A stretch of 42,851 nt of DNA from a virus. The DNA lies in the IMG/VR virus record IMGVR_UViG_3300040806_001314, positions 1 through 42,851 of that record; one strand, 5' to 3'. The notes under the pieces were generated by a model. It was given only the letters and a program-made list of their open reading frames with translations, had not been told where the DNA came from and made no database searches. This document shows positions 17,642-42,851 of the stretch, one piece after another (the first letter of the stretch is position 1; each line of letters opens with the position of its first letter). Position numbers and translations under genes: made by a program.

Positions 17642-17855
17642 CCTTATAAGAAAAATAACTATTGGTAGAGACTACAAAAATGAAGCCATGCACTACTCTG
17701 TTGGACAGGAAGTCTACGGTGGGCATGTTATAGATAGTATAGTAGAGCTTGAAGATAAGTTTAGTATATATATCAAAAAAGGTAGCAACGTTTTGCCTTG
17801 GAAAGACTTTAACAAAAACATGGGTGTTGCTGTTGAATATAACCTTGAGTACTAA
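17634..17855 (+). CDS. Small conserved phage protein
   Basis: 73 residues: MNNLIRKITIGRDYKNEAMH, a compact beta-rich core (VGQEVYGGHVIDSIVELEDK, FSIYIKKG) and a Trp-containing end (VLPWKDFNKNMGVAVEYNLEY). It overlaps its upstream neighbour by 8 nt and shares a TAATG junction with the next gene. I do not recognise a characterised family. Its fixed place next to the GroES-like and terminase genes suggests a part in packaging or head assembly. Confidence 0.7.
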   Translation: MNNLIRKITIGRDYKNEAMHYSVGQEVYGGHVIDSIVELEDKFSIYIKKGSNVLPWKDFNKNMGVAVEYNLEY

Positions 17856-18451
17856 TGAAGTCTATATTTGATTTTGTTGTAAAGCCATTAGGTGGTAGAT
17901 CTAAAAACAAAAAGAAAATAGGTGAAAAGCAGCTTATACTAAACACGGATCTTCAAGATCATAGATACGTGAATAGAATAGGTGTTGTTGTAAGCGTTCC
18001 TGTAGAAAACGATACAGGTGTAGAAATAGGTGATCAGGTTATTGTTCACCATAATGTTTTTAGAAGGTTTTATGACGTTAAGGGTAGAGAGAAAAATAGT
18101 AGAAGCTATTTTAAAGAGGATACCTATTTGTGCGCTAAAGACCAAGTTTACATGTATAAGAGAGACGATGTTTGGAAACCTTTAAATGGTTATTGCTTTG
18201 TTAAACCTATACAGTCTACAGATAAATGGACTATAGAAAACGAAAAGCCTTTTACAGGTGTTATAAAAATGCTTGGAAAAGATCTTTCTAAATTTGGTTT
18301 AAAAATAGGAAACCTAGTTGGCTTTACACCTAGAAGCGAGTATGAGTTTGTTATTGGTGATCAAAGGATGTATAGGGTTTTATCAAAAAACGTGAATATA
18401 GATTATGGACATAAAGGAAACGAAAAGGAATATAATCCTAGCTGGACATAA
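17855..18451 (+). CDS. Tandem GroES-like barrel protein
   Basis: 198 residues that read as two GroES-like barrels in tandem. The first (about 5-100) has LILNTDLQDHRYVNRIGVVV followed by GVEIGDQVIVHHNVFRRFYD and ends DQVYMYKR. The second (about 108-190) has NGYCFVKPI, GVIKMLGKDLSKFGLKIGN, then YEFVIGDQRMYRVLSKNVNI. The GxVxxV...xxGDxV...YxVxxxxI pattern is that of Hsp10. No clear GroES mobile loop is visible, so it may not cap GroEL. It could be a capsid-specific co-chaperonin, comparable in idea to T4 gp31, or a structural protein with that fold. It overlaps the next gene by 47 nt. Confidence 0.65.
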   Translation: MKSIFDFVVKPLGGRSKNKKKIGEKQLILNTDLQDHRYVNRIGVVVSVPVENDTGVEIGDQVIVHHNVFRRFYDVKGREKNSRSYFKEDTYLCAKDQVYMYKRDDVWKPLNGYCFVKPIQSTDKWTIENEKPFTGVIKMLGKDLSKFGLKIGNLVGFTPRSEYEFVIGDQRMYRVLSKNVNIDYGHKGNEKEYNPSWT

Positions 18452-18683
18452 AGCTGTTGAAGAACTTATTAAAGTTGCTGAAGAAAAAATAATAACCCAC
18501 TCAGAAGACGATGTTTCTGCAGATAGGTTAAAGAATGCTGCGGCGACAAAAAAGCTAGCTATATTTGATGCTTTTGAAATATTAAACCGTATTAACGAAG
18601 AAGAAGCTATGCTTGAAAACAAGCCAAAAGAAGAAACTCAAACAAAAGCATTTAGTGGTTTCGCTGAAAGAAGATCTAAGTAA
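18405..18683 (+). CDS. Putative small terminase subunit
   Basis: 92 residues, almost wholly helical (NIILAGHKAVEELIKVAEEK; DRLKNAAATKKLAIFDAFEI), with an acidic and basic tail ending FAERRSK. It ends in a TAATG overlap with the large terminase gene. Position, size and helical make-up fit a TerS-type DNA-recognition protein, but no HTH is obvious and no homologue was checked. The 47-nt overlap with the preceding gene is the longest true overlap in this operon apart from the nested ORF. Confidence 0.55.
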   Translation: MDIKETKRNIILAGHKAVEELIKVAEEKIITHSEDDVSADRLKNAAATKKLAIFDAFEILNRINEEEAMLENKPKEETQTKAFSGFAERRSK

Positions 18684-20902: not shown

Positions 20903-23318
20903 GTCAGTTATAAAGAGTTATTTTCCTAGTCAAGTAGCTAGTGATCAAGAAAAACTAAGTCTAGAGTATGGGCTTAAAGTAGGTAAAGCTATCGAGGATG
21001 AATGGTTTAAAAGAGATGGTGGTGTTTACAGATTTCACAGTAACCAAGAAACCTTTCACACTCGTAGGCAATACGCTAGAGGAGAACAGTCAATACAGAA
21101 ATACAAAGATGAACTTTCTATAAATGGTGATTTGTCTTACTTAAACCTAGACTGGAAACCTGTACCTATTATACCTAAATTCGTGGATATCGTAGTAAAC
21201 GGTATTTCTGAAAGAACGTATGATGTAAAAGCTTTTTCTCAAGATCCTTTTGGTATTGAAAAAAGAACTAAATACATGGAGTCAATACTAAGAGATATGC
21301 AAACTAAGCAGATAAGCGATTTTGCAGAACAAGCTTTTGGTATTAGTATGTATGAAAACCCAAAACAGAGTTTACCAGAAAACCAGGAAGAGCTAGAGCT
21401 CCACATGCAGCTTTCTTACAAGCAATCTATAGAGATAGCGGAAGAACAAGCTATAGCTACAATACTGGAAGATAACAAGTACGAAAACATTAGAAAAAGA
21501 CTTAACTACGACTTAACAGTTTTAGGTATGGCTTGTGTAAAAAACACATTCAATACGTCTGAAGGTATAAAAGTAGAGTATGTTGATCCAGCGGCTTTAG
21601 TTTATTCTTTCTCCGAGTCACCTTATTTTGATGATATATACTACGTGGGTGAAGTTAAAAACGTACCTGTAAACGAGCTTAAAAAACAGTTTCCAGAATT
21701 AGAAAATGATCAACTAGATGAGATACTTAAGAAAAGTATACATGATAGAGGACATTATAGTAACTCACCTAGAAACAACCACACTGTAGATATAAACACA
21801 GCTCAAGTTTTGTATTTTAACTACAAGACATACATGAACGAGGTTTATAAATTAAAAGAAACAGGTAGTGGTGCAAGCAAGATTATACTTAAAGATGATC
21901 AGTTTAACCCACCACAAGATTTAGAAACAAGGTTTGGTAAAATTTCAAGATCATTAGAGGTAGTTTATGAAGGTGCACTTATTCTTGGTACAGACATTAT
22001 GTTAAAGTGGGAACTTTCTAAAAACATGATGAGACCTAAAAGTGACGACACTAAGGTTAAAATGAACTACAACATGGTAGCTCCACGCATGTATCAGGGT
22101 CGTATCGAGTCTCTAGTATCAAGGATTACTAGTTTTGCTGATATGATACAGCTTACACACCTAAAACTACAACAAGTGTTGACACGTATGGTGCCAGATG
22201 GTATATACATCGATGCTGATGGTTTAGCTGAAATAGATCTTGGTAATGGTACAAACTATAATCCAGCGGAAGCACTTAATATGTTCTTCCAAACAGGTAG
22301 TATTATAGGTAGGTCATTTACATCAGAAGGTGACATTAATCCTGGTAAGATACCAATTCAAGAAGTAACGTCGGGGGCAGGAGGTCAAAAAATAGGTGCT
22401 TTAATAAACACGTATAACTATTACCTACAAATGATTCGTGATGTTACGGGTTTAAACGAAGCTCGCGATGGATCTACACCTGATAAAAATGCTTTAGTTG
22501 GAGTACAGAAGTTAGCTGCTGCTAATTCTAATACAGCTACCAGACATATTTTACAGTCTAGTCTTTTCTTAACAGCTGAACTAGCTGAGAGTTTGTCTCT
22601 TCGTATTTCAGATGTTATAGAGTTTTCTCCTACAAGAGAATCATTGATAAACAAAATAGGTGCGCATAACACTGCTGTTATTAGTGAACTTCACGACATA
22701 CACATACATGATTTTGGTATATTTATAGAACTAGCTCCTGATGAGGAAGAACAACAGTTGCTAGAAAACAATATACAAGTGGCTATAGCTCAACAAACTT
22801 TAGATATTGAAGACGCTATAGATATTAGAGAAATTAAAAACGTTAAGTTAGCTAACCAACTTTTGAAGCTGAGAAGAAGAAAGAAAAAAGAAATGGATCA
22901 GCAGATCGCTCAGCAAAACATGCAAGCTCAAGCCCAAGCAAACGCGCAAACACAACAAGCTGTTGCTCAAGCAGAGGCTCAAAAACAACAAGTCATTGCT
23001 CAAGGCAAAGCGCAGCTTGCTCAGTTACAAGCTCAGTTGGATACTCAGAAACTACAGTCTGAGGCTAAAATTAAAAAAGAGCTTATGGCTACTGAGTTTG
23101 AGTACAATATGAAGTTAAGAGGTTTAGAGTTAGAAGGTCAAAAGTCAAAAGAAAAAGAAAAAGAAGACCGAAAAGACAAAAGAACTAAAATACAAGCCTC
23201 TCAGCAAAGCGAATTAATTAATCAAAGACAAAACAATAAACCACCAAAAGATTTTGAATCATCTGGTAATGATACTCTTAACGGTAATTTTGGATTAGGT
23301 TATTTTGAACCTAGGTAA
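20895..23318 (+). CDS. Portal protein
   Basis: 807 residues. The N-terminal half has portal-like features (GLKVGKAIEDEWFKRDGGVY; NGISERTYDVKAFSQDP), and the core contains RDVTGLNEARDGSTPDKNAL and VGVQKLAAANSN, which I associate with long portals of short-tailed phages. From about residue 665 a Gln/Ala-rich coiled coil (QANAQTQQAVAQAEAQKQQV) passes into a Lys/Glu-rich helix and a disordered tail. The portal is the dodecameric ring through which DNA enters and leaves; the long helical end fits a barrel reaching into the capsid (inference). Placement after TerL supports the call. Confidence 0.88.
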   Translation: MAESVIKSYFPSQVASDQEKLSLEYGLKVGKAIEDEWFKRDGGVYRFHSNQETFHTRRQYARGEQSIQKYKDELSINGDLSYLNLDWKPVPIIPKFVDIVVNGISERTYDVKAFSQDPFGIEKRTKYMESILRDMQTKQISDFAEQAFGISMYENPKQSLPENQEELELHMQLSYKQSIEIAEEQAIATILEDNKYENIRKRLNYDLTVLGMACVKNTFNTSEGIKVEYVDPAALVYSFSESPYFDDIYYVGEVKNVPVNELKKQFPELENDQLDEILKKSIHDRGHYSNSPRNNHTVDINTAQVLYFNYKTYMNEVYKLKETGSGASKIILKDDQFNPPQDLETRFGKISRSLEVVYEGALILGTDIMLKWELSKNMMRPKSDDTKVKMNYNMVAPRMYQGRIESLVSRITSFADMIQLTHLKLQQVLTRMVPDGIYIDADGLAEIDLGNGTNYNPAEALNMFFQTGSIIGRSFTSEGDINPGKIPIQEVTSGAGGQKIGALINTYNYYLQMIRDVTGLNEARDGSTPDKNALVGVQKLAAANSNTATRHILQSSLFLTAELAESLSLRISDVIEFSPTRESLINKIGAHNTAVISELHDIHIHDFGIFIELAPDEEEQQLLENNIQVAIAQQTLDIEDAIDIREIKNVKLANQLLKLRRRKKKEMDQQIAQQNMQAQAQANAQTQQAVAQAEAQKQQVIAQGKAQLAQLQAQLDTQKLQSEAKIKKELMATEFEYNMKLRGLELEGQKSKEKEKEDRKDKRTKIQASQQSELINQRQNNKPPKDFESSGNDTLNGNFGLGYFEPR

Positions 23319-28487: not shown

Positions 28488-31400
28488 ATGCCAGAGTTAA
28501 AGCGCCTTTTCACATCAGGTAAAATGAATAAAGACCTTGATGAGAGACTAGTGCCTAATGGCCAATACAGAGATGCTCAGAATATTCAAGTTAGTACCTC
28601 TGAGTCTTCTGATGTTGGCGCTATTGAAAGCATAGTTGGTAACGCTATAAAAAACAAAAGAACATCAGATCCTGATACCTACTGGAGCGCTAATTTTGGA
28701 TTAACAAACCCTACATGTGTTGGTGTTTTAAGAGACACGGAAAACAATAAGATATACTGGTGGATAAGCGCAGATGATGGTGATGGTATCCTTGAATACA
28801 GTGAATCAACAGGTTTAACACTACCTGTTTTAGTTGACACAGGTTCTATACTTAATTTTAGTAAAAACTTTCTAATAACAGGTTGTAATGTTTTTGAAGG
28901 TATGCTAGCTTGGACTGATGATTTAAACGAGCCCAGAGTAATTAACATAGAAACATTTAAAGCTGGTAGCACTAGTAATACCACATCATTAAGTACCACA
29001 ACAACTGTTTATGGTAGATCTTTTTTAGCTAGTGACATAACGGTTATTAAAAAGAAACCTAACACAGCACCTACTTTTACAGCCGCTTCTTCTACAAGGA
29101 CAGGTGTTGGATCTGGTTTAAACACCGTAACTGTTGAAAAAGACTTTACAGAAACTATAAATAACGCAGATGTTCCATTAGAAGTTGGGTCGTCTGTGAG
29201 TTTTATAACATCAGCCAACACTAACTGGTTGGCAAACGATATAGTTATACTAACAGCAAGCGAGATAAACGATAATAACAACGAGGACGAGTATCAAGTA
29301 AGAATAAAGATAACATCTTTGCAAGGGCCAAATGTCGTGGGCACTATACAGTCTATATCTTCAAATTTACCAGGTTTTCCTTATACATGGACATGTGTTC
29401 TAGAAGAAGAAAAGCCTATGTTTGAGTTTACTTTTCCAAGATTTGCTTATCGTTGGAAATACAAAAACAACGAGTACTCGGCTTTCTCACCTTTTACAAA
29501 ACCAGTGTTTGTACCTGGAGATTTTGAATACAGTTCACTAGAGTCACACAACATAGGTATGGTGAATAACTTAAGAAAACTTACTATAAATGGTTTTCAA
29601 ACACCTCCAGCAGATGTTGATGAAATAGAAATTTTGTATAAAGACTCTTCTTCAAATAACATATATAAAGTTGATGAGATCGATGCTACAGAAACAAGCT
29701 ACTCTATAACTTCTGAACTTATATACCATGTTATACAGGCTAATCAGATACTAAGACCTTACGACAACGTTCCGTTAAAAGCAAAAGCACAGGAACTCAT
29801 AGGTAACAGGTTAGTATATGGTAATTACGTACAAGGTTATGATGTAGACACTGAAATTAAAATAACTCTAGACATAGACTCTAGTGATATAACTAGTGTA
29901 AGAACTCCAGAATCTTCTTTAAAATCAATTAGGACATATCAAGTTGGTATTGTTTTTATAGATGAAAACGGTAGAGAAACACCTGTATTTACAAATGACA
30001 CTGCTTCTATTAGAGTTGATAAAAATGTATCGCACAAGGTAAACAAATTAAAGGTAGATTTTGATACATCTAGCAACGCTGCGCCAACTTGGGCAACTCA
30101 TTTTAAATACTTTATAAAAGAAACATCTAACCCATACTACAATTTTGTTCTTGACAGATACTACGCTTCTGAAGATGGTAATATTTGGTTAAGTATACCA
30201 AGTGCAGAAAGAAATAAAATACAAGAGGGTCAATATGTTGAAATAAAAAAGAAACACAACTCTGATGAACCTGTAGAAGGTAACGCTAGATACAAGATAT
30301 TAGACATAAGTAACGAAGCGCCTGAATTTATAAAAACAACAAGGCATTTTGCTGCTACAGGTTTAATAACAAGGGGCGGTGAAACAGATAAAATAACATC
30401 TGATAGAAAGCAATTCACTTTTATAGGCCCAACTATATCTGAAAATGATAAATTTTTTACTTTATTTAGAGAATCTGTATACTTAGTGTTTAAAGATGAC
30501 ACTAATACAAGTCAATTTTACGAAGTAAAAAGCGGTGGTTATTATGACTCCGCTCATAATTTATACAGGATAGAATTAGTTGAGAAAATAGATGAAACAG
30601 ATAACTGGATAGACTCATTAAGTAATACAGATGAATTTACATGTGAAATACACGAGCGTGTTGTTTTAAATTTACCCGAGTATGAAGGTAGGTTTTTTGC
30701 TAAAATAAACAGAGATGTTGTATTTGAAGAAAATATAATATACAACTTTACAAATAAGCCTAGTGATTACCAATTGGTAGCGAACACACAGTTAGCTATA
30801 GCCAATAATATACTAGATAATCCAGACACGCAAGTTGGAGAAATAATAGATAATACTGCTTGGGCAGAAAATGCAAACGCTGATCCTAGTGTTACCGCTC
30901 ACGGTAGACCTACCGATGGTAGCAAACTTTTTGGTTTTTACTTTGCTCCTTTTGATGGTGATTTAACAGGTGATACACCTAAAACTTTTGATGATACCAT
31001 AGATGAAGGTAGTGTTGTTCAGTTTTATGATAGCACTTCTTCAACATGGAGTGGTCTTTACGAAGTAGATTCTGTATCTAAAGGTTCTTATGATAGACAA
31101 AGCCCTGACATTGGTGATACTACAGATGAAGCAGGTTATTATTGGAACATAACATTAAAAGAGCAATTTAGAGGAGATATCGATTTTGAAGGTGATCCAT
31201 ACACGATTACTAGCATAAAAATAGTAAAAAGAAAAAGGTTGTTAACTACTCAGTTTGACGAGAACTCTGTGGTTTTAAGCTCTTTTAACCCAGCTGTTTG
31301 GGAAACAGAACCTTTAGAAACAGCTGAGCTAGACATTTATTACGAAGCAAGCGACGCAATAGCTATAGGTAATTTAAATGCAGAACAAACGTTATCGTAC

Positions 31401-32834
31401 ACTAATTGTTATAGCTTTGGCAATGGAGTTGAGTCTGATAGAATAAGAGATGATTTTAACGCGCAAATTTTAGGTAAAGGTGTAAAAGCTTCGTCTACTT
31501 TAGACGAGCCGTACGCTGAAGAGCGTAAAAAAGCAGGTATGATATACAGTGGTATATTTAACAGTGTTAGCGGTGTAAATAACCTAAATCAATTTATAGC
31601 TGCAGAGAAGATAACAAAAGACTTAAACCCTATATACGGTTCAATACAAAAACTTCACACTAGAGACACTGATTTAATAGTGTTGCTAGAGGATAAGATA
31701 TTTAGAATACTTGCCAATAAAGACGCTCTTTACAACGCTGATGGTAATGCTAACCTTACAGCTACCAATCGTGTGCTTGGGCAAGCAACACCTTACGTTG
31801 GTGAGTATGGTATATCTAAAAATCCTGAATCGTTTGCATCGTATGGTTTCAGAGCTTATTTCACAGACAAATCAAGAGGTGCTGTAATCAGACTTTCTAG
31901 AGACGGTATAACCGAAGTATCAGGTAAAGGCATGAGTGACTATGTACTTGACGCTTACAAAAGCCACAACATAAATCAGATATACGGATCTTTTGATGAA
32001 GACACAAGCGCTTACAATGTTAGGGTTAATGGTGAAGTTTTATCATTTAAAGAAAATGTAGATGGTTGGCCTACTAGACTAACCTATGAACCAGAATTTG
32101 GTATATCTTTAAATAACGAATACTATACTTTTAAAAACGGAGAGTTGTATATCCATAACGACGCTACTAACAGGTCTAATTTTTACGGTACACAGTACGA
32201 TACAAGTGTAACAATGCTGTTTAACGACGAGCCTTCAAGAATAAAAAACTTTAAAACTTTATCCTACGAGGGTGATACAGGTTGGACAGCCGCTGTAGAC
32301 ACTGATCAGCAAGACGGTGAGGTAGCTACATGGAAAAACAAAGAAGGTATACACTACAACTACATTAGAGGTTTAGATAGTACATGGGATCAAAGCAACC
32401 AAACAGGTACGCTAGATACTAGTGAGTTTAATGTACAAGGTATAGACGAATGTTCTTACGCAGCATTAAACGGTGCTCAAACAGAGTGGACGATTAGGTT
32501 TACTAATAACATAAACTCACTGTTACAAGGTTGGAGAGATGCTAGTGATCCTGATCAAGTATACAGTGATGACAAAGTGTATTTTGTAGACGATAGTGAT
32601 GAAGATAAGATTTACTTGATAGGTAGATGTATATACGTATCAGATACAGAAATACATGTAACCAAGGATACACAACATGTTCCTGCTACAGGTGATTTTA
32701 TATTTTTTGCTAAAAACTCACAAGTAAATACATCGGGTATTATAGGTTACTACGCATCTGTAAAGATGACTAAAACAGGTGGAACAAACAAAGAACTTTT
32801 TGCTGTTAACTCTGAGATATTTATTAGTAGTTAA
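28488..32834 (+). CDS. Tail tubular protein B / muzzle-like protein, 1448 residues
   Basis: The start KRLFTSGKMNKDLDERLVPN followed by GQYRDAQNIQVSTSESSDVG is strongly conserved in short-tailed Bacteroidota and marine phages in the protein closing the tail tube. The rest is mostly beta-rich with no membrane segments, consistent with propeller and sandwich domains of T7 gp12-like nozzle or crAss-like muzzle proteins; it is nearly twice the length of T7 gp12 (about 790). A conserved-looking stretch near residue 1100 (TPYVGEYGISKNPESFASYG; FRAYFTDKSRGAVIRLS) suits the ring interface. Placed between connectors and internal proteins, as in T7. Confidence 0.8.
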   Translation: MPELKRLFTSGKMNKDLDERLVPNGQYRDAQNIQVSTSESSDVGAIESIVGNAIKNKRTSDPDTYWSANFGLTNPTCVGVLRDTENNKIYWWISADDGDGILEYSESTGLTLPVLVDTGSILNFSKNFLITGCNVFEGMLAWTDDLNEPRVINIETFKAGSTSNTTSLSTTTTVYGRSFLASDITVIKKKPNTAPTFTAASSTRTGVGSGLNTVTVEKDFTETINNADVPLEVGSSVSFITSANTNWLANDIVILTASEINDNNNEDEYQVRIKITSLQGPNVVGTIQSISSNLPGFPYTWTCVLEEEKPMFEFTFPRFAYRWKYKNNEYSAFSPFTKPVFVPGDFEYSSLESHNIGMVNNLRKLTINGFQTPPADVDEIEILYKDSSSNNIYKVDEIDATETSYSITSELIYHVIQANQILRPYDNVPLKAKAQELIGNRLVYGNYVQGYDVDTEIKITLDIDSSDITSVRTPESSLKSIRTYQVGIVFIDENGRETPVFTNDTASIRVDKNVSHKVNKLKVDFDTSSNAAPTWATHFKYFIKETSNPYYNFVLDRYYASEDGNIWLSIPSAERNKIQEGQYVEIKKKHNSDEPVEGNARYKILDISNEAPEFIKTTRHFAATGLITRGGETDKITSDRKQFTFIGPTISENDKFFTLFRESVYLVFKDDTNTSQFYEVKSGGYYDSAHNLYRIELVEKIDETDNWIDSLSNTDEFTCEIHERVVLNLPEYEGRFFAKINRDVVFEENIIYNFTNKPSDYQLVANTQLAIANNILDNPDTQVGEIIDNTAWAENANADPSVTAHGRPTDGSKLFGFYFAPFDGDLTGDTPKTFDDTIDEGSVVQFYDSTSSTWSGLYEVDSVSKGSYDRQSPDIGDTTDEAGYYWNITLKEQFRGDIDFEGDPYTITSIKIVKRKRLLTTQFDENSVVLSSFNPAVWETEPLETAELDIYYEASDAIAIGNLNAEQTLSYTNCYSFGNGVESDRIRDDFNAQILGKGVKASSTLDEPYAEERKKAGMIYSGIFNSVSGVNNLNQFIAAEKITKDLNPIYGSIQKLHTRDTDLIVLLEDKIFRILANKDALYNADGNANLTATNRVLGQATPYVGEYGISKNPESFASYGFRAYFTDKSRGAVIRLSRDGITEVSGKGMSDYVLDAYKSHNINQIYGSFDEDTSAYNVRVNGEVLSFKENVDGWPTRLTYEPEFGISLNNEYYTFKNGELYIHNDATNRSNFYGTQYDTSVTMLFNDEPSRIKNFKTLSYEGDTGWTAAVDTDQQDGEVATWKNKEGIHYNYIRGLDSTWDQSNQTGTLDTSEFNVQGIDECSYAALNGAQTEWTIRFTNNINSLLQGWRDASDPDQVYSDDKVYFVDDSDEDKIYLIGRCIYVSDTEIHVTKDTQHVPATGDFIFFAKNSQVNTSGIIGYYASVKMTKTGGTNKELFAVNSEIFISS

Positions 32835-32867: not shown

Positions 32868-33557
32868 ATGGCGCAACCAGCTTACTTATTAGCTTCAGCG
32901 GGCTTAAACCTAGCACATAATCTCTACACTGGTCCACAAAGACGAGAAAGGTTTAGTAATGCAGAGGCTGATTTTAACAGAACTAAAGCCCAATACTTAA
33001 GTCAAGATTTAAGTAACCCAGCTTTAAACCAACAAAATGTATTTGAGGATTTAACTGTAAATACTCAAGAAGCAGATTTTATTGCAAATCAACAGAATCA
33101 AGCTTTAGCAAATACAATGGATAGCATGAACCAGGCTGCTGGTGGATCCGGTATTGCTGGCCTTGCGCAGGCTATGGCTAATCAGCAAAGCCAAAATGCT
33201 ATACAAGCTGGCGCGCGTATTGGTATGCAAGAGGCTAAAAATCAAGCTTTTGAAGCACAAGGTGCTCAAGCGCTGCAACAATCAGAACTTCAAGGTGAAA
33301 TGTACTCTAGAGCACTAAAAAGAAATCAATTTGCCACAGAACTAGGTATGGCTCAACAAGAGTTTGGTCAAGCTAGAGCTGAAAAGCAAGCCGCTACTAC
33401 GCAAGCGTTTAACGCATTTGGTAATATGGCTTCTGCGGGATTTGGTTATATGGAAAACATAAACGCAGCAACCGAAGAAGACTTTGGTTTAGGTACAGGT
33501 ATAATAGGATTACTTGGTGGTGTTTTAGGTAAAACAGGTGGAGGAACTTATGGCTAA
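32868..33557 (+). CDS. Internal virion protein, T7 gp14-like by position
   Basis: 229 residues, Ala/Gln/Asn-rich and mainly helical (NQQNQALANTMDSMNQAAGG; EMYSRALKRNQFATELGMAQ), with a Gly-rich hydrophobic end (FGLGTGIIGLLGGVLGKTGG) that could insert in a membrane. Size, composition and place (after the tail tube, before two larger internal proteins) match T7 gp14, which forms the outer-membrane pore during DNA ejection. No sequence homology to gp14 is claimed. Its stop overlaps the next start by 8 nt. Confidence 0.65.
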   Translation: MAQPAYLLASAGLNLAHNLYTGPQRRERFSNAEADFNRTKAQYLSQDLSNPALNQQNVFEDLTVNTQEADFIANQQNQALANTMDSMNQAAGGSGIAGLAQAMANQQSQNAIQAGARIGMQEAKNQAFEAQGAQALQQSELQGEMYSRALKRNQFATELGMAQQEFGQARAEKQAATTQAFNAFGNMASAGFGYMENINAATEEDFGLGTGIIGLLGGVLGKTGGGTYG

Positions 33558-35007
33558 GAAACAATCATACATGCCACCTATGGGTGGAGATGCTAACTTA
33601 ATACAAGGTGCTGGTTTTGCAGCTAAAAACCTTATGCAGCCTGTTGGTCAAGGTATAATTGAGCAAGGTAATTTAAGAGCTCAGGAAAATAAACAAAGAA
33701 AACAAGAGATATCAAAACAAGCCGATGCGCGTATGGCTGCGTTTATGGAAAACATGCCGCAGAATATTGATATCGCTAAAGTTCCAGAGCAAATGCGTCC
33801 TGAAATTACTAATTTCTTGATGGATGAAAAAGACAATTACTTTAGAAACGCTCAAATAGCTGCTACCGCTGGTCCACGTAGTCCACAATATGCTGAGGCT
33901 ATTCAAAACATGAATACTATCATGCAGAAGTTTCAAAACCTTAACAACGACTTAACTAAGCTTTACGACACTAAAAAGAAAACATTAGAAGACTTTGAGT
34001 TAGGTTCTATATCAAATGGTACTTCTGCTGATGCTAAGGATTTTATGACGAGGCTTACCACAGATGAAATAACATTAGGTATTAATAGTGAATCAGGTAG
34101 ATTAGCTTTAGGTGATGATGGTTCTATGAACATGGATAACCTACCTAAAATGCACTACAAAGACCACGAGTCTGCACAGGCTATACTAACACTTAATAAC
34201 CAGCTATATAACAATGGTAGACCTATGGATGCTGGCCAAGAAAGTATAGTACGTATGCAGCTTCAGAACATAATGGATAAAGGTGGTAACGCTGCAGTAA
34301 GGTCGTTAGCTACAGACGATCATATTATACCTGGTGGTCTAGGTATTGATCCAGAAGATTACACACCTGAAGAGCTTAAAAAATTAGTTCTTGACCAATA
34401 TGTCAACGTAATGAAAACAGCTTCTCAAAACGGTTACAAAGCTGTTATACAAGAAGAAAACAGAGCAGATAATAGAGCTTTGGAAAGAAGTATAAACTTA
34501 GCTAAAAGGAAAAAAGAACTTGGTGTAGACGGTAATGGTGGTGATGATGGTATGACCAATGCTCAAAGACAAAAAATAAAACAAGCTGAAAGGATAGTAT
34601 CTCAAGTACAAGGTGATCTTCAGGATATCATTAATATGGAACCAAATGAAGATGTTGTTTTGCTTGTTGGTAGTAAATACAAAGGCAAAGAGGTTCTTGG
34701 AGCTAAAAAGCGACAAATTCTTGAAAACGGGAAGTCAAAAGAAGTTTTAGAAATTGAATTTTTAGTTAAAACTTCTACTCGTAATTCAGGAACGCGTTAT
34801 GAGACGGTCGAGCAAATTACAGACGCGGTTAATATCGATCTTTCTGATCCTAGACAACAACAAATGTTAAGAGACCAAATAATTAGATACCGCTTTGGTT
34901 CTGATGACGCTTCTGATAAAGCATTGCTAATATCAGGTGATCTTAGTGATGTAGAGGAACAATTACCTACAATGGAGGAGCTTTTAATAGGCCGTCAATA
35001 TAAATAA
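33550..35007 (+). CDS. Internal virion protein, T7 gp15-like by position
   Basis: The start is set at ATG 33550 (485 residues): MAKKQSYMPPMGGDANLIQG is the conserved-looking beginning, and a clear Shine-Dalgarno GGAGG (33540-33544) stands five bases before it; the in-frame ATG at 33538 would precede that site. The protein is helical and hydrophilic, with a Gln/Lys-rich N-terminal helix, a middle part containing STSADAK-like and LATDDHIIPGGLGIDPEDYT segments, and an acidic end (DLSDVEEQLPTMEELLIGRQ). It probably lines the ejection channel with its neighbours. Function inferred from order and composition. Confidence 0.65.
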   Translation: MAKKQSYMPPMGGDANLIQGAGFAAKNLMQPVGQGIIEQGNLRAQENKQRKQEISKQADARMAAFMENMPQNIDIAKVPEQMRPEITNFLMDEKDNYFRNAQIAATAGPRSPQYAEAIQNMNTIMQKFQNLNNDLTKLYDTKKKTLEDFELGSISNGTSADAKDFMTRLTTDEITLGINSESGRLALGDDGSMNMDNLPKMHYKDHESAQAILTLNNQLYNNGRPMDAGQESIVRMQLQNIMDKGGNAAVRSLATDDHIIPGGLGIDPEDYTPEELKKLVLDQYVNVMKTASQNGYKAVIQEENRADNRALERSINLAKRKKELGVDGNGGDDGMTNAQRQKIKQAERIVSQVQGDLQDIINMEPNEDVVLLVGSKYKGKEVLGAKKRQILENGKSKEVLEIEFLVKTSTRNSGTRYETVEQITDAVNIDLSDPRQQQMLRDQIIRYRFGSDDASDKALLISGDLSDVEEQLPTMEELLIGRQYK

Positions 35008-35019
35008 TAATATTTTCAC

Positions 35020-38000
35020 ATGTTTGAATACGAAGGAAAAACGTATAGCTTTGATGATATTCAGGCTATTGTAAGTGATTACAACGCTCAAAACAACACC
35101 TCATACACTGTAGACGACTATGTGTCTATGGCAGGTATGGCAAAGGTTGATGATTCAGCAAAGATGGAGGGCGTGGATCAGCAGGACGTGACCACACAAA
35201 GCCCAATAAAACCGTCCGAGGGGCTAGCGCAAGATATGGCTTCGTTTTCGGAAAATTATTCATCGGAATCGAGTACAGAAGATAGCCAGAATCAAATGGG
35301 TGAGTTTAAATTACAAACACCCAGCACTTTACAACCTATTGATCAAACCGAGTTTACACCTCATATAATAGACCACGAGTTTGTTGATGAGATGTACAAC
35401 AAAACTAGGTATAGTGATAAAGTAATGTCTTCTGTCAACAAGGTTATTAAATCTGATAACCTTCCTAAGATTGATAGAAAAGCTTTGATTGACGAAAAGG
35501 AAGACTTCTATGGTTTACAGACTGATCAAATATTAGATTACTCTAGTCAAGAAATGGTCATGCAGTTTAACGACGCTGTGTTAGTTGACTACATGGAGAA
35601 CGACGAGGACTTTGCTTTAGCTAGAAAAGAGTTTGAGTTAGACTTTAAACCTAAAGCTAAAGAATACGCTGATCAGCTAGCTAAAAAGTACGGTATTGTA
35701 AAAGAAGACGGTTCTTTTGATTACGACAGTCCTAACGCTGAACGCTACATTCAAGACATGAATGATTACTATTACTCTAATTTCTTAAAAGATGAGAGAA
35801 TAGCTAAAGACATTACTAATTTTAACAACCAGTTAAGTTTTTACCACGATAATAATTACTCAGCGTACAATGTTGAGGCGCATACACCTAGTTGGGTTTC
35901 TTATATAAACAACTCTAAGCTTTACTCGCCCTTTAAAAATTCGGGATTAAATCTCATCAACTCTTTTTCTATGCTTAGGCGTATGAATACAAGTATACAA
36001 AAAGGTGGTTTAATGGACGAAGACTTACAAAAAGTAAGTTACAACCATAACAAAATGCTTAGGCTTGCTGATGAAAAAGGTTGGTCTGAAGATCAAAAAG
36101 GTGTTATTGACGATTATGGTATATTTCAACCTATGGGTGAACAATATCCTTCAATAAACCCTTCTAGAGGCGCAAAGCTAACGACTTGGAGAGAAGCTAG
36201 AGAGCAACAAGAAGAGATGATAAAATCTCAGCAAGGAGATTGGGTTAAAAGATACAACAAGGTTGTTGAACGCATGGCTATCGATATGTCTTTTGATACT
36301 AGTACGATGGACGATGTGTTCAGTGCTCAGGGTTTTGCTGGTACAATGAAGGAAGCGGCTGGTATGGTGGCTGAGCAAATACCTCAAATGGCTGCCGCTT
36401 TAATATCTTACGGTTCTTTACCAGCTGCTCAAATGGCTGGTGATGATTACTTTTCTGTCATATCAGATAGAGCTAAAAATAAGTTTGGTGTAGACGATCA
36501 AGGTTTAACATCTGCTATGTTGTTAGATATAGTTGAATCAGATTCAGCAAACGAACTTGGTAAAGGCTCTATAGCTGTTGGTGTTTTTAGCGGTGCCGCA
36601 GAGTACATCGGTGCTAGATCAGTAAGCAAAGCTGCGTTAGGTGTAAACGTCTTAAAACAATCATCTAGAAACGCCATGTCTTCACTTCTTAGAGGTGTAA
36701 TGCAAAAAAACCTTAGACAAGCACTTAAAAAAGCCGGTGTTGGTGTTTTAAAGCAAGGTAGAGCTTCTCTTGGGGCAGGTTGGGACGAAGCTTGGACGGA
36801 GTTTACACAAGAGCTTCTAACACAAGCACATGTTGGTGAATTTAGTTCTGACAGGTTGCTTGAATCTGCTGGTATGGGCTTTACGGTGGGTATGCTTATG
36901 CCTGTTTATGGATCTGTAAGTGCTTACACTTTAAACGAAATGCAGAGTGCCTTTAACATGGTTAGAGGTAGGTTTGATCCTAAGAGTTCTGAAGCCATGT
37001 ATAACTGGTTTTCTGAAAGAATAAGAGTTAAACTTGAAAACGGTCAAATAAGTAAAGATGAGTTTGATCAACAAATGGAAGATCTTAGGTACGTTCAAAA
37101 TGCTAATACGTCTATACCTTCCAAAGTTAGACAGGATAAAAATCTAGCTAATAAATGGGTTAAAGCTGAGATTGAATTTCAAAAAATAAAAAGAAAAACA
37201 CAAGCTAAAGAAGAACTCGGCGAAGAGTATGATATGTTTAGCTTAGCAGCTGCGGCTACGCATAAAAAAGCTTTAGAAGCGCTAGTTAAAGTGTCTGAAA
37301 AAAAAGACATTGATCCTGCTAGAATAAAAGAATTAAAAAGAAGGCTTAACAAGGTTAAAAGGTACGACATAAGCGGTTACATGTTTGCAACTGCAGCGTT
37401 AGGTCATATTGAAGTTTACGATAGGAACTTTAGTAGATTTACTAAAGTATTCAACAACAGTTTAAAAGCAGCTAGGCAAATAGATACAGATATAGTTAAA
37501 ATCGACACCTTTGAAGAAGCTGCTATTATTAAGTTAGCTGATCAAGGTATTGTAAAACCTGGTAAAAACGCGACAGATAAACAAAAACAAGAGTACGAGC
37601 AAGCTGTTAAAGAGCTAGTTGCTAAAATGGATGGAACTCAAGGGTATATTTCTGATGCTTTCTTTTTAGGTAAAGATGGCAAGCAATATGTTATAACATC
37701 ACTTATAAATGATCCTGAGTACAACACCCAATCTCCTTCTCACGAACTTCAACATCATTTATGGAAGAAAACTCTTAATAATGACCAAGCTATAGTTGAT
37801 AACCTATATTTCGCTACAAGAGACGCATTGATAGAACTTTCTAGATCTGGAAAGATTAAAGGAGATGTTAAGTCCGTGCTTGAATCACTTGAGAAAGCCT
37901 ACGAATTAAAAGACAACAAAAACAAACGTGATGAGTTGCTTAACATAATTGGTGATTCTTTTATGGTTGAAGGTGATTCTAGACTTGCTTGGAATGAAAA

Positions 38001-41000
38001 TTTACTTCAAAAAGTAGGTAGACATATCAACGAGTGGTTTGGTAAAACATACAACACAGAAGTTAATCTAGACACTGGAGAAGATGTTATTAGATGGATA
38101 TCTGGGTACAAGAGAAATATAGCTCTAAATAGAGGTCTTGGTGCAGGTACTGTTAAAGGTGCTAAAGAAGGATTTAAAGGTAAATTAACGGAATCTAAAG
38201 GGCCAAAATACACTGCTAAGTTTGATGAATCTGTAATGGAATCTAAAAGAACAGTTCCAACAGAAGATCAAGCTAGAGTTTCTAAAGAAATACAAGAGAT
38301 ATACAACAATAGGGAAGAATACGGTGAGTTTTGGGCATTTCAAGTTTTAGAGTATCAATCTTCAAAAGGTCAAAACTATTTTAGAAACTTAGTTAGAAGC
38401 ATACTTAAAAAACACAATTACTACGAAAGACCTAACGCTAAACAGATGGAAGAGGATGTTATAGCTAACTCTCTTTACAACTGGAATCAAAGAAAAGATA
38501 CTCGTAGAGAAATAGGTAATGATGGTGTTTTAGGTTTAATAATGTCTTATGACGAGTCTAAAAATGATTCATTACTTGCTTACATAAATACATACCTTGG
38601 TCTAAATATGACCACGCAGAATGGTTATGGTATTATTGATAAAGCACTACAAGCTACTTCTGGTAGAGGATTTGAATCTAGTGTTGATGATGTTTACGAT
38701 TTATCAATATCCGAGGATAGCAACGGTATGGGTATGAGTGAAGGTCTTGATTTCACAGAAGAGGTTACATTCAGCAAGCTACGTCGTATATTAAACCTTA
38801 ATGAAGAGCAAATGAACATGGTTCGTAAAGCCGTTATGGACGGTATGCTTGCTCTTGAAGAAGTTTCTGGGCCTGGTACTCTAGCTGAAATGGCTATGGA
38901 GCAACCTGTTTTGTTTAGAAACTACTTTAAAAACGTGTTTAAAGAGTACCTGTATAAATACCTTCTTGAAGAGGTTGTTGGTACTAAACAGGGTTATAGA
39001 GAGTTTTTAGATAAAGCGTATGAATGGATACCTCAAATATTTGATATAAGAACATTAACAAATAGAAAAATAACTCCTTTCTATGAAGTGCTAAAAGATC
39101 CTAAAACAGGTAAACCTCTTAGATACAATTACAAAGAATCAATCGAGCTAATGCTTGATGATCCTAAAGCTGGTAACGCTAAGGTTGTTAAAAGAGAACC
39201 AACTTATCAAGAGTTTAAGAATTGGTATAACGCTGTAGGTATGTCTCAAAACATGTGGTTTCAACGTAAAAAGTCTATTGTTGAAGCTATGGCTGAGACG
39301 CTGGGTTTTGACGCGGCTTTAGAGGTGCTTAAGAATCCATCTCAGAAGTTTTTTACAGCTAGAGGTAAAGAACGTAGTGCTGATCCAATGGACGTGATGG
39401 GTGAAATAGCAGAAGCTTCTGATAAATACAAAGGCTCTGCTGTTGTTGCTAGAATAGCTCAGGTTATAAATAGAGATCCAAATGTTAAGTTTAGCAGCCG
39501 TATGTCACCAAGAGATGCAGCTGACTTGATAACTAGAGATCAAGAGATACAAAGCTTGATGGAGCGTATGGTTAACCCAGCTGTGGTTCAAAACATGGCT
39601 AAAAACGCTGGTGTTAACACACGTACTAAAGAAGACATTAGAGATTACATGTCAACTATTATAGAAGACGCTATAGAACAAACTATGCCTACAGTTTTAG
39701 ATCCTAATTCTGTAAAATACTTGGCTGAAAAAGCAGCAAACTTCATAATGTCTTTGCACGCTAATAAAACTAGATACAACGTTGAGCAAAACAAAAAAGT
39801 TTCTAATGCTTACAGTTACCACGTTGTTAATGTTTTGACTGATGCAGCTAAAAACAAAGTGTTTAACAATGGTTTAGATAATTACTTGAATGTATCTGGT
39901 TATTCATCTATCGTTGACGCAACTAAAGTCAATAACAGTTTTTTAACACACGTTGTAACACAACGGTTCTTTAACGCTTTGGAAAAATATCTAAAGGAAG
40001 CAACACCTATGGATGTTGGTAACAAAAATGTTGACTTGTTATCTGATGTGTTGCAAACTAAGGTTGCTGTTGAAAATGTACTTTCTATAATAGATCCTGT
40101 AAACTACATTGAGCGTGTAAGGTCTATTAACGAAAGAATAAGAAAAAATTACGGTTTAACTGGTGATTATCAGGGTTACATTGCTAGAGAAATAGGTTTT
40201 GAAAAAGACTATAGATCTATCACCGGTGAAGAGCTTGATGATGATTATGGTTATAAATATGGCGCTTACAATAGCGTTGCTATCGGTGAGTCAAACGATC
40301 TTACGTTAATAGCCAACTCTGTGTTAAACGCTAGAATAGACTTTGAAGAAAAGTTACCTAAGTTCAACCCCACCGTTGAGCTTAGCCTTGCTTTCTCTGA
40401 CGCAAAACAAGTTAGCAAATCAACTATTGGTTATGCTCAAGAGGTGAGAAAAAGAATGAAACCATATAGTGATATACTAAACAGTATAATTGAAGAAACA
40501 TCAGAAGCTTACAGAAACAATCTTATAAACTACAACGACGTAATAAACATACTTAAATCTTTAAACAGCAATAAAGATTTACTTAAACTAGGTATGTTGC
40601 CGTTCGCTGTGCAATCTGACGTTGTACTTGAAAAAGCTAAGCTTGGTGAAGATTCTTACATTGTTTATAGAACTGGACCTGTTGATGATGCGTATTTACA
40701 AAAAAACAATAAAGAAGGTCATTACTTTGCAGAGTTTGAAATATACTCTAACAACTACAGGGTTTTCACACAACAAGAAGTTTTAAGGAAAGAGGGTCGT
40801 AGAAACGATAGAGACAAAACAGAGGCTTACGTTGTACAGATGAAAAATCCGTATGAGATGTCTGATAAAATGGAGTTTATGCGGGCTGTTATAGGAGGAT
40901 TAAGGCCGCAAACGTTAATAAACTTAGGGTACGACGGTATTATATTTAACAGCCCTATTGCTAGTGGAGCTGAATTTTTACCTGGTAAAGAGTTTTTAGC

Positions 41001-42851
41001 TTTTAGCTCTAAGCAAGTTACTAAACTAACGAATTTTGATCGTGAAGCTACTATAGCTATAAACAACGAGGGCGTTATACCTTCAACTACACATGAGTAC
41101 ATGGTTTCATCTATAGCCGAATACATACTTGGTAACGGGGTTTATTCTAATAAAAACCCTATGTCATCTGACGTACTTGGTGCTTCTATAATAGCTAACA
41201 AGAAATACAAGACTAAACTAAAAAAACTTGGTTATCTAAACGAAATGGAGTTATCTATGATTGACGAGAAGTCATTTAATGATGTCACGCCATTTAGCAG
41301 ATTTATCAATATGACTAGACCTAGTCTACCGCGTACATCAAAACCAGGTTTCCAAACATCGTCTAATGATTTCTTTTTATACGACTTTAGCACAGGTAAT
41401 TTTAGCAAGACATTAGACCTTTCTAAGCTAAATGAGCATGATAGAATTCAACGTGTTATCGCTGACTTAAAAATATTAGGTGATGATATAAGAGACTCTA
41501 AGAGAAAGAAAAAATCAAGTGATGAAAAGAAAGGTAGAGAGAAAGCTAATAAACAAACGTTTAAACGTAAGAAAAAAAGACTTACAGCTAAAACAGTTGA
41601 CAAATTAGCATCTATACTTGATGAGACTAGAGAAAAAGTAAGAGGTAAAATGCTTACTCAAGAAGAGATCGACAAAGAGCAAAAACTAGAAGAACAAGAG
41701 CGCGAGGCTGCTGCTTTAAACAAGCAGATGAACGACTTGATAGAGGAGTTATTTGGTATTAAATCAGAAAGCGTGATAGATGCTATTACAGCTGATGAGA
41801 GATCAAAGAAAACAACTAGAAGAGAATTGTTACCACCTGCCGCTGAAGACTTCTTTGGTTTACTAGAAAACTATTTAGTCGGTAAAGGTAAGCAGGGCGA
41901 AAAACACTTGTCTTTCTTGTACGAGTACCTTATTGAGCCTTTAATGATGGCTAACTTTAATTATGATTCAGAAAGAATTAGACTTCTAAAAGCGTTTAAA
42001 AACATTAGAGACACTTATAAAGCGACTTTCTCTTTCTTGAAAAGAACAGCTGTTGATTTTAAGAGATCAGATGGTGTAGAAATGCAATACTCTGGTGAAT
42101 CAGTGCTTAGAGCGTATATATTTGAGAGACTTGGACACGACACTGGTTTAGACCCTGAAGTTAGGAAAGCCTTTAATGCACATATTATAAAAAATCCAGA
42201 TTTAAAAACCATAGCATTAAAAGTTATATTGATAACTAAAGAGCATAACTACGCTGAGCCTAAGGGTGATTGGTGGCTTGGTAGTATACAAGAGGATATA
42301 CTAACAGCTTTAAAGAGTAATAGTAGAAAAGTTTATTACGATGAGTTTATAAGAAATGCTGAGATTATGTTCAGTGAGGATAATATGAACAAACTTAAAT
42401 ACGCTCTTGGTTACAAATACACTAAAGCACTTGAGGGTACATTAAAAAGAATAAAAGCTGGTAGCAACAGAACTGAACAATTAAGTAAAACAACCCGTGC
42501 TCTTTTTGACTTTATGAACGGTACAGCTGGTGTTGTTATGTTTGGTAACGTTAGATCGGCTGTTCTACAGTTAATATCATCAACAAACTACATCGATTAT
42601 TCAGATAACAACTTACTAGCTGCTACTAAAGCAATGGCAAACTTCCCTCAGTTTGTTAATGACTTTATGTACATAATGAACAGTGATTTCTTATTAGCGC
42701 GTAGAAACGGTCTTCAGATGGACATCAATGAATCTGAGATCATAGATAAGACTAAGACAGCTTCTAATAAGTTTAGAGCTATGTTAGCGCTTATACTATC
42801 AAAAGGGTATGTATTTACTAAATACGGTGACTCTACAGCTATCGCTCTTGG
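35020..42851 (+). CDS. Giant internal polyvalent protein with zincin-like and ART-like domains (3' truncated)
   Basis: Open from ATG 35020 through the window end: 2610 complete codons with no stop. N-terminal motif MFEYEGKTYSFDDIQAIV, then an acidic linker (about 45-90) in a GC-rich patch, a helical part, and Ala/Gly-rich hydrophobic segments (about 460-640: GTMKEAAGMVAEQIPQMAAA; ESAGMGFTVGMLMPVYGS) that could cross membranes during ejection. Residues 907-914 read SHELQHHL, a zincin-type HExxH (H908, E909, H912). Residues about 1875-2005 resemble ART-type polyvalent domains: YIVYRTGPVD with R1884, later YAxx-type strand AYVVQMKNPYEM, GYDGIIFN (1970-1977) and EFLAFSSKQVTKL. A basic coiled coil follows (about 2165-2240). 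The end (NVRSAVLQLISSTNYIDYSD, from 2510) matches a tail domain common in marine phage giants. Confidence 0.85.
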   Translation, partial: MFEYEGKTYSFDDIQAIVSDYNAQNNTSYTVDDYVSMAGMAKVDDSAKMEGVDQQDVTTQSPIKPSEGLAQDMASFSENYSSESSTEDSQNQMGEFKLQTPSTLQPIDQTEFTPHIIDHEFVDEMYNKTRYSDKVMSSVNKVIKSDNLPKIDRKALIDEKEDFYGLQTDQILDYSSQEMVMQFNDAVLVDYMENDEDFALARKEFELDFKPKAKEYADQLAKKYGIVKEDGSFDYDSPNAERYIQDMNDYYYSNFLKDERIAKDITNFNNQLSFYHDNNYSAYNVEAHTPSWVSYINNSKLYSPFKNSGLNLINSFSMLRRMNTSIQKGGLMDEDLQKVSYNHNKMLRLADEKGWSEDQKGVIDDYGIFQPMGEQYPSINPSRGAKLTTWREAREQQEEMIKSQQGDWVKRYNKVVERMAIDMSFDTSTMDDVFSAQGFAGTMKEAAGMVAEQIPQMAAALISYGSLPAAQMAGDDYFSVISDRAKNKFGVDDQGLTSAMLLDIVESDSANELGKGSIAVGVFSGAAEYIGARSVSKAALGVNVLKQSSRNAMSSLLRGVMQKNLRQALKKAGVGVLKQGRASLGAGWDEAWTEFTQELLTQAHVGEFSSDRLLESAGMGFTVGMLMPVYGSVSAYTLNEMQSAFNMVRGRFDPKSSEAMYNWFSERIRVKLENGQISKDEFDQQMEDLRYVQNANTSIPSKVRQDKNLANKWVKAEIEFQKIKRKTQAKEELGEEYDMFSLAAAATHKKALEALVKVSEKKDIDPARIKELKRRLNKVKRYDISGYMFATAALGHIEVYDRNFSRFTKVFNNSLKAARQIDTDIVKIDTFEEAAIIKLADQGIVKPGKNATDKQKQEYEQAVKELVAKMDGTQGYISDAFFLGKDGKQYVITSLINDPEYNTQSPSHELQHHLWKKTLNNDQAIVDNLYFATRDALIELSRSGKIKGDVKSVLESLEKAYELKDNKNKRDELLNIIGDSFMVEGDSRLAWNENLLQKVGRHINEWFGKTYNTEVNLDTGEDVIRWISGYKRNIALNRGLGAGTVKGAKEGFKGKLTESKGPKYTAKFDESVMESKRTVPTEDQARVSKEIQEIYNNREEYGEFWAFQVLEYQSSKGQNYFRNLVRSILKKHNYYERPNAKQMEEDVIANSLYNWNQRKDTRREIGNDGVLGLIMSYDESKNDSLLAYINTYLGLNMTTQNGYGIIDKALQATSGRGFESSVDDVYDLSISEDSNGMGMSEGLDFTEEVTFSKLRRILNLNEEQMNMVRKAVMDGMLALEEVSGPGTLAEMAMEQPVLFRNYFKNVFKEYLYKYLLEEVVGTKQGYREFLDKAYEWIPQIFDIRTLTNRKITPFYEVLKDPKTGKPLRYNYKESIELMLDDPKAGNAKVVKREPTYQEFKNWYNAVGMSQNMWFQRKKSIVEAMAETLGFDAALEVLKNPSQKFFTARGKERSADPMDVMGEIAEASDKYKGSAVVARIAQVINRDPNVKFSSRMSPRDAADLITRDQEIQSLMERMVNPAVVQNMAKNAGVNTRTKEDIRDYMSTIIEDAIEQTMPTVLDPNSVKYLAEKAANFIMSLHANKTRYNVEQNKKVSNAYSYHVVNVLTDAAKNKVFNNGLDNYLNVSGYSSIVDATKVNNSFLTHVVTQRFFNALEKYLKEATPMDVGNKNVDLLSDVLQTKVAVENVLSIIDPVNYIERVRSINERIRKNYGLTGDYQGYIAREIGFEKDYRSITGEELDDDYGYKYGAYNSVAIGESNDLTLIANSVLNARIDFEEKLPKFNPTVELSLAFSDAKQVSKSTIGYAQEVRKRMKPYSDILNSIIEETSEAYRNNLINYNDVINILKSLNSNKDLLKLGMLPFAVQSDVVLEKAKLGEDSYIVYRTGPVDDAYLQKNNKEGHYFAEFEIYSNNYRVFTQQEVLRKEGRRNDRDKTEAYVVQMKNPYEMSDKMEFMRAVIGGLRPQTLINLGYDGIIFNSPIASGAEFLPGKEFLAFSSKQVTKLTNFDREATIAINNEGVIPSTTHEYMVSSIAEYILGNGVYSNKNPMSSDVLGASIIANKKYKTKLKKLGYLNEMELSMIDEKSFNDVTPFSRFINMTRPSLPRTSKPGFQTSSNDFFLYDFSTGNFSKTLDLSKLNEHDRIQRVIADLKILGDDIRDSKRKKKSSDEKKGREKANKQTFKRKKKRLTAKTVDKLASILDETREKVRGKMLTQEEIDKEQKLEEQEREAAALNKQMNDLIEELFGIKSESVIDAITADERSKKTTRRELLPPAAEDFFGLLENYLVGKGKQGEKHLSFLYEYLIEPLMMANFNYDSERIRLLKAFKNIRDTYKATFSFLKRTAVDFKRSDGVEMQYSGESVLRAYIFERLGHDTGLDPEVRKAFNAHIIKNPDLKTIALKVILITKEHNYAEPKGDWWLGSIQEDILTALKSNSRKVYYDEFIRNAEIMFSEDNMNKLKYALGYKYTKALEGTLKRIKAGSNRTEQLSKTTRALFDFMNGTAGVVMFGNVRSAVLQLISSTNYIDYSDNNLLAATKAMANFPQFVNDFMYIMNSDFLLARRNGLQMDINESEIIDKTKTASNKFRAMLALILSKGYVFTKYGDSTAIAL
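37738..37758 (+). other. Zincin-like HExxH motif in the giant protein
   Basis: The codons encode SHELQHH (residues 907-913), with H908, E909 and H912 as the HExxH triad and H913 adjacent. The preceding beta-like strand (GKQYVITSLIN) and the helix around the motif fit a zincin fold. Downstream Glu or His residues that could serve as third ligand are numerous, so it is not assigned. Confidence 0.6.
40630..41035 (+). other. ADP-ribosyltransferase-like (ART-PolyVal type) domain
   Basis: Within the giant protein, residues about 1871-2005. It has the order expected of ART domains in polyvalent phage proteins: YIVYRTG (R1884), GHYFAEFEIYSNNY (the STS-like second strand), VVQMKNPYEM, GYDGIIFN, and a final EFLAFSSKQVTKL strand containing E1991 and Q1999. 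This family transfers ADP-ribose from NAD to protein or nucleic-acid targets. Which acidic residue is catalytic is not settled from sequence alone. Confidence 0.6.

Follow-up and report, generated by a model that had tools for sequence, protein, structure and literature searches.

What is the very long gene that closes the late operon of this virus, and what would its product do at the start of an infection? The window analysed here is a whole virus record (IMGVR_UViG_3300040806_001314; 42,851 bp), and it ends inside the gene in question (35020..42849, + strand), whose 3′ end lies off the contig. The reading frame opens with an ATG at 35020 and continues for 2,610 codons without a stop to the contig end. 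A scan of the protein against 2.9 million viral contigs returned a single close relative with a complete giant, designated L001, which is 3,018 aa long and 79% identical across window residues 1-2610. The window giant is therefore short of about 400 residues. The preliminary description had put the protein at more than 2,610 residues and at least twice the length of T7 gp16 (1,318 aa), which is upheld by the full-length L001 protein at 2.3 times gp16. That description also looked to the sequence beyond the window, where the record stops and the complete L001 homologue supplies the remainder. The whole giant has no significant match in Pfam or PHROGs, and a tblastn search of 50,697 phages returned no match to it.

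The genes ahead of the giant encode the terminase large subunit (18683..20902, + strand; phrog_6681, E 1e-164; 63.5% to MW202828), the portal protein (20895..23318, + strand; phrog_6547, E 8e-155), a capsid-type protein and a muzzle (tail tip) protein of 1,448 aa (28488..32834, + strand; PF25729 crAss_MUZ_C, E 1e-11; phrog_14478). The giant is the last gene of this late operon, downstream of portal, capsid and muzzle. Relatives by terminase and portal include the uncultured podovirus MW202828, the Flavobacterium elemo phages, Tenacibaculum phage Gundel_1 and Cellulophaga phages of the Pervagoviridae and Pachyviridae. In most of them the late region closes with muzzle, small, middle and giant genes, sometimes with small genes interspersed; this order is not present in Gundel_1. 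Because the relatives found on bacterial contigs all belong to MAG bins, no host is assigned from a single isolate. Elsewhere in the window, the phage encodes its own GroEL (131-1699; PF00118, E 5e-56) and GroES (1686-1946; PF00166, E 1e-11). At 17855-18451, which Pfam leaves unmatched, there may be a second GroES-like gene, GroES being annotated in that position in Cellulophaga phage phi18:3 and the elemo phages. A 111-aa protein with an HEKVH motif (2386-2721) matches weakly to DUF6782, a putative metallopeptidase family (E 0.015). After the giant, the L001 record encodes at 19383-20827 a secreted thioredoxin-like protein, by reading lacking CxxC, and a 363-aa protein resembling an outer-membrane beta-barrel; a role of the two in superinfection or as receptors is possible.

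Two genes separate the muzzle from the giant. Their products, of 229 aa (32868..33557, + strand) and 489 aa (33538..35007, + strand), occupy T7 gp14-like and gp15-like positions and contain no cysteine. With the giant of about 3,018 aa they form three consecutive late genes in a small-middle-giant series, ordered and sized like T7 14-15-16 and N4 52-51-50; the giant, third in the series, does sit where T7 gene 16 lies, as had been proposed. The upstream pair accompanies the giants across the family, with median lengths of 237, 477 and 2920 aa for the small, middle and giant proteins. The three window proteins together have 0 cysteines in 3,328 residues. Among the 81 family giants longer than 2,000 aa, 38 cysteines occur in 230,351 residues and 74 of the 81 have none; the protein two genes upstream of the giant has none family-wide in 17,495 residues. 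Control values are 0.36% cysteine for the remaining upstream late ORFs and 0.53% for a broader comparison set. T7 gp15 and gp16, N4 gp51 and gp52, and N4 gp50 (3,341 aa read) are likewise free of cysteine, and crassvirus cargo proteins mostly have one to three each. The lack of cysteine in the N4-like virion RNA polymerase has been explained by its passage through the tail (PMC3915230). The cysteine depletion seen here therefore speaks for a chain threaded through the tail. In four otherwise cysteine-poor giants (L100, L115, L132 and L134), the last 130 residues carry six cysteines as a C-terminal tail (GxRC ... C..H), and these tails may be zinc knuckles.

Carriage in the particle can be approached through cultured relatives. 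The last gene of phi18:3 (gp123, 1,935 aa) is syntenic with the giant and is annotated from MS/MS as a virion structural protein. Neither phi18:3 gp123 nor phi38:1 gp101 has a detectable sequence relation to the window giant, and the placement of the giant in the virion thus rests on synteny. In the elemo phages the giant is labelled 'structural protein', a label whose proteomic basis was not found in the literature searched. Gene order, the near-absence of cysteine and the MS/MS-annotated protein at the syntenic place in phi18:3 all agree with the ejection-type role proposed in the preliminary description. The giant is probably the third and largest protein of an ejection set, carried in the particle and pushed into the cell ahead of the DNA.

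How the protein is built was assessed across its family. Muzzle relatives (593 drawn, 80 kept) and relatives of the giant C-terminus (521 drawn, 80 kept) were aligned, and the kept loci hold 85 distinct giants with the C-terminal module, 81 of them long (>2,000 aa). Judged by sequence, this is a family of almost cysteine-free giants of about 2,200-3,700 residues that share a metal-protease-like site. Conservation is very uneven along the chain. L001 segments covering residues 2201-3000 are recognisable in 81-83 of the 84 other giants, and the N-terminal half in few of the 84 by plain sequence search. The N-terminal region itself (residues 1-740; 35020..37239, + strand) is the fastest-evolving part, with omega of about 0.27-0.31. 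L001 segments across residues 1501-2100 are recognisable in 0 of 84, so the stretch holding the ART-like part discussed below is hypervariable. The layout would thus run from a variable N-terminal half through a conserved HExxH...E zincin-like metallopeptidase and a hypervariable slot to a conserved C-terminal module, all-helical and about 800 aa long. The membrane-like, hydrophobic segments ascribed to the protein earlier did not hold up: the highest Kyte-Doolittle mean over 19 residues of the window giant is 1.21, below the level of a membrane helix, and a mean of at least 1.6 is reached in only 11 of 81 family giants.

The zincin-like domain (residues 741-1050; 37240..38169, + strand), supported by a 73-giant alignment (A4), a structural model and hhalign, contains the putative zinc-binding motif HELQH at residues 908-912 (37741..37755, + strand). 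Exactly one HExxH is found in 79 of 81 giants, against 0.5 expected from shuffling. A glutamate lies about 60 residues downstream in all 80 rows of a motif-anchored alignment, in an EExxTxxSD-like context that reads RDELLNIIGDSF in the window. This residue, Glu 972 (37933..37935, + strand), would be the third zinc ligand, giving the gluzincin pattern HExxH...E. H908, E909, H912 and E972 are the sole invariant columns of the 73-row alignment. The domain profile also matches the giant of Flavobacterium phage elemoA around HEIFH (hhalign probability 95%, E 4e-8, 183 columns), and a homologous zincin domain is therefore present in a cultured phage. Against the N4 virion RNA polymerase the same comparison is not significant, though the HELVH of N4 was aligned at the motif. 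AlphaFold models the domain with pLDDT 80 and pTM 0.68, the motif lying on a helix preceded by two strands. The model has no confident match in the PDB or fold libraries, its PDB rows being generic helical ones. Of the zincin called earlier, the motif stands and is conserved in relatives; the model gives a strands-then-helix arrangement with no confident library match. With one HExxH in 79 of 81 giants and a conserved downstream Glu, conservation of a zincin-like site throughout a deep family is firmly established at the sequence level; zinc binding and proteolysis would follow from it.

At the other end of the protein, the conserved helical module starts within the window (residues 2191-2610; 41590..42849, + strand; present in 83 of 84 other giants) and is complete in L001 (residues 2203-3018). 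Its model is all-helical, mostly at pLDDT 70-95. Foldseek comparison with BFVD returned proteins of uncultured marine viruses (E 1e-36 to 1e-39), and further matches to a protein annotated as ART-PolyVal-like (E 6e-7), a large polyvalent protein associated domain (E 2e-6) and PolyVal ADP-ribosyltransferases (E 3e-6 and 4e-5). The PDB gave generic long-helix rows only, and the module profile found no match in the elemo, phi18:3 or phi38:1 giants by hhalign. The BFVD matches (E 6e-7 to 4e-5), which come from predicted folds and are independent of any call on the ART-like part, are the best support for a polyvalent-protein reading, and the earlier comparison with polyvalent proteins is borne out at this C-terminus. 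Like the polyvalent proteins of Iyer et al. 2017 (PMC5512222), the giant is a very large multidomain late-gene protein with a zincin-like MPTase, an ART-like part and a C-terminal helical module common by fold. It differs from them in that no Pfam LPD domain is detected, the N-terminal half is unmatched, and the ART-like part falls under the PF18760 cut-off and has R rather than H at strand 1. The late virion gene location and a polyvalent-associated module shared by fold are thus present; of the two or more disparate activities that mark such proteins, the zincin-like site is firm and the ART-like domain is sub-threshold.

This ART-like segment (residues 1856-2010; 40585..41049, + strand) lies in the hypervariable slot. 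By sequence reading it carries YRTG, GHYFAE, NPYEM, GYDGI and EFLAFSS in the usual ART-fold order, the YRTG / GHYF / EFLAF series falling at residues 1883-1995 with R1884 in YRTG and E1991 in EFLAF. The window copy has no match in Pfam. In the L001 copy, PF18760 (ART-PolyVal) is the single match among 24,736 Pfam models (E 0.0045, 18.2 bits against a curated cut-off of 31.2 bits); it is co-linear and spans model positions 29-135 of 140. Four shuffles of the L001 domain gave 0 matches to PF18760. The match starts past strand 1, leaving the candidate strand-1 R of YRTG outside the alignment. No further carriers beyond L001 were found in the viral and bacterial collections or the fetched loci, PF18760 searched directly in four genomes gave none, and the segment has no sequence relative in the PDB. 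Its omega of 0.165 indicates purifying selection. In a model of L001 residues 1850-3018 the ART-like part, built from two sequences, reaches a pLDDT of about 35, with strands at the R and GHYF motifs. Polyvalent ARTs have an H-Y-D active site and Alt an R-S-E one (PMC5512222); with R at strand 1 and E as the downstream acid, the segment fits neither exactly.

The ART-like domain of the preliminary description thus survives in its motif series and in a co-linear PF18760 match in L001, but that match is sub-threshold, the window copy is unmatched and the model is poor; similarly, the profile search for ART-PolyVal and LPD families yielded 18.2 bits in L001, under the cut-off, and no LPD. The likeness to T4 Alt stands as an analogy only, with a packaged ADP-ribosyltransferase that acts on entry: the segment has no recognised R-S-E serine motif, and Alt is a single-purpose R-S-E clade protein. 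On balance, residues 1856-2010 appear to be ART-like, although not a member of PF18760. ART-like segments by motif, with no Pfam support, also occur in the elemoA giant (YRGTS, residues about 1114-1220) and in the L084 giant (YRGGG, residues about 1687-1760).

Slot contents differ between lineages, with a HAD domain, a P-loop kinase or the ART-like part depending on the lineage. HMM searches detect a HAD phosphatase-like domain (DFDDTL, LTAR, K, YFADD) just before the C-terminal module in 72 of 85 giants, with motifs I, II and IV intact in 62 of 85. It is absent throughout the window clade (L001, L009, L010 and L060), and for that reason the idea that the ART-like part replaced HAD in the window lineage was dropped. 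In a few relatives this HAD domain directly follows a P-loop kinase (Zeta_toxin / AAA_33, E down to 1e-15). The resulting kinase-then-HAD order, seen at residues 1531-1879 of L104 and in a few other giants, is that of polynucleotide kinase-phosphatases.

Between the zincin-like domain and the slot, a block at residues 1084-1227 (38269..38700, + strand) weakly resembles sigma-70 region 2. HMM matches to it occur in 36 sequences including the window, with consensus DEILTGKRGLLDLIKNYDPEKGVSLSGYINSYLSKRAIE. Sigma factors make up four of its nine matches among PDB profiles, at sub-significant E values of 0.02-0.16, Sigma70_r2 is matched in one of 45 relatives (E 0.0036), and hhalign against E. coli RpoD is not significant. 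With the PDB matches sub-significant and the RpoD comparison negative, the resemblance is kept as a lead only. The L001 record (G001:C1) separately encodes two sigma-type domains at 1517-1726 and 4048-4287 (PF04542, E 1e-20 and 9e-7).

The best explanation of these observations as a whole, and a likely one, is that the phage is a podovirus infecting marine Bacteroidota and bearing a muzzle of the crassvirus type, and that its giant is an ejection protein of polyvalent type, in which a conserved protease-like core is combined with a slot for variable payloads. The giant would travel in the virion and enter the cell through portal and tail as a mostly unfolded chain, before or with the DNA. The zincin would most likely cut the giant itself after folding, thereby releasing the payload or splitting the ejected chain into separate enzymes; this reading follows from the near-universal presence of the zincin whatever the payload. 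Self-processing by zincins in polyvalent proteins has been proposed (PMC5512222), and the model for crassviruses, in which the cargo is partly unfolded (PMC10172136), is in line with it. In the window lineage the divergent ART-like domain of the slot is probably, to judge from its motifs, an ADP-ribosyltransferase that would modify a host protein within minutes of the start of infection. Host targets such as RNA polymerase or defence proteins are speculation.

Other readings can be set against this one at several levels. The giant might remain in the virion throughout, as a tail protein or structural scaffold, which the bare 'structural protein' annotation of cultured relatives would allow; the family-wide near-absence of cysteine, the ejection-set gene order and the enzyme-like domains make this very improbable. 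It might instead be a virion RNA polymerase of the N4 or crassvirus kind, diverged past recognition. Its gene position is shared with crassvirus gp47 and N4 gp50, the N4 polymerase also combines an HExxH domain with a large helical C-terminal domain, and one weak fold row pairs the giant with the N4 polymerase domain (Z 4.2). Against this, the giant contains no DxDxD motif and no RNA polymerase profile match, neither its zincin nor its C-terminal profile is significant against the N4 protein by hhalign, and the sigma factors encoded by the L001 genome suggest use of the host polymerase, so that such an identity is very improbable. A bolder proposal, itself improbable, is that the giants are a chassis for payload delivery that replaces the virion RNA polymerase here, uniting a self-processing zincin, differing effectors (ART-like, or HAD with or without the P-loop kinase) and a sigma-region-2-like domain that would dock on and redirect the host RNA polymerase at entry.

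At the level of single domains, the zincin might serve envelope penetration, cutting peptidoglycan cross-links or periplasmic proteins during ejection and so filling the role that the transglycosylase domain has in T7 gp16, with the slot incidental. Its occurrence in 79 of 81 giants, irrespective of payload, would suit this role, and the lack of any lysozyme- or SLT-type Pfam match in the giant means that another wall-opening activity would be needed. However, an HExxH is lacking from the syntenic giants of phi18:3 and phi38:1, two relatives from Bacteroidota, and the N4 virion RNA polymerase, which enters the cytoplasm, does have an HExxH domain (PMC12633501); penetration is thus unlikely to be the function. 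That the ART-like segment is some other, unrelated alpha/beta domain, or a relative that has lost catalysis and is kept for binding, is quite conceivable, given the sub-threshold score, the unmatched window copy, the lack of a PDB sequence relative, the low pLDDT and an R at strand 1 where polyvalent ARTs are reported to have H (PMC5512222). What speaks for an ART is that the one family named beforehand was the sole match of 24,736 and was covered over nearly its whole model, and that the R and GHYF motifs fall on predicted strands of a segment under purifying selection.

Comparison with known ejection systems helps to place the polyvalent-type giant. N4 gp50, which acts with gp51 and gp52, is similarly the last of a three-gene ejection set, about 3,000-3,500 aa long, cysteine-free in the 3,341 residues read, and equipped with an HExxH domain and, at the C-terminus, a large helical part. 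The giant differs in having no detectable RNA polymerase, in profiles that are not significant against the N4 sequence, and in an HExxH placed ahead of the variable middle. T7 gp14, gp15 and gp16 share the gene order and the small-middle-large sizes, with gp15 and gp16 cysteine-free, but the giant is more than twice as long as gp16 and, searched over the whole protein at E up to 1, has no transglycosylase-type Pfam match. A cultured counterpart is gp21 of elemoA (3,694 aa), an elemovirus protein with the same gene position, no cysteine and the homologous zincin domain (E 4e-8); it differs by a DUF3293, a different YRGTS segment and a weak C-terminal fold match (E 2e-3). In crassviruses the cargo genes gp45, gp46 and gp47 likewise follow the muzzle gene, but the position of gp47, an RNA polymerase subunit, is held here by a zincin-bearing giant.

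The picture, then, is one of ejection proteins of polyvalent type in podoviruses with a crass-type muzzle, recognisable by clear markers at the family level; that the window giant carries an ART-like payload is plausible from its motifs. The markers are simple: near-absent cysteine, a near-universal single HExxH...E and a variable slot followed by a conserved helical end may reveal ejected polyvalent proteins that annotation pipelines have missed. The cultured Flavobacterium elemo phages make both delivery and self-processing directly testable. If this explanation is true, hundreds of marine phages would send an enzyme package of several thousand residues through the tail ahead of all phage gene expression.
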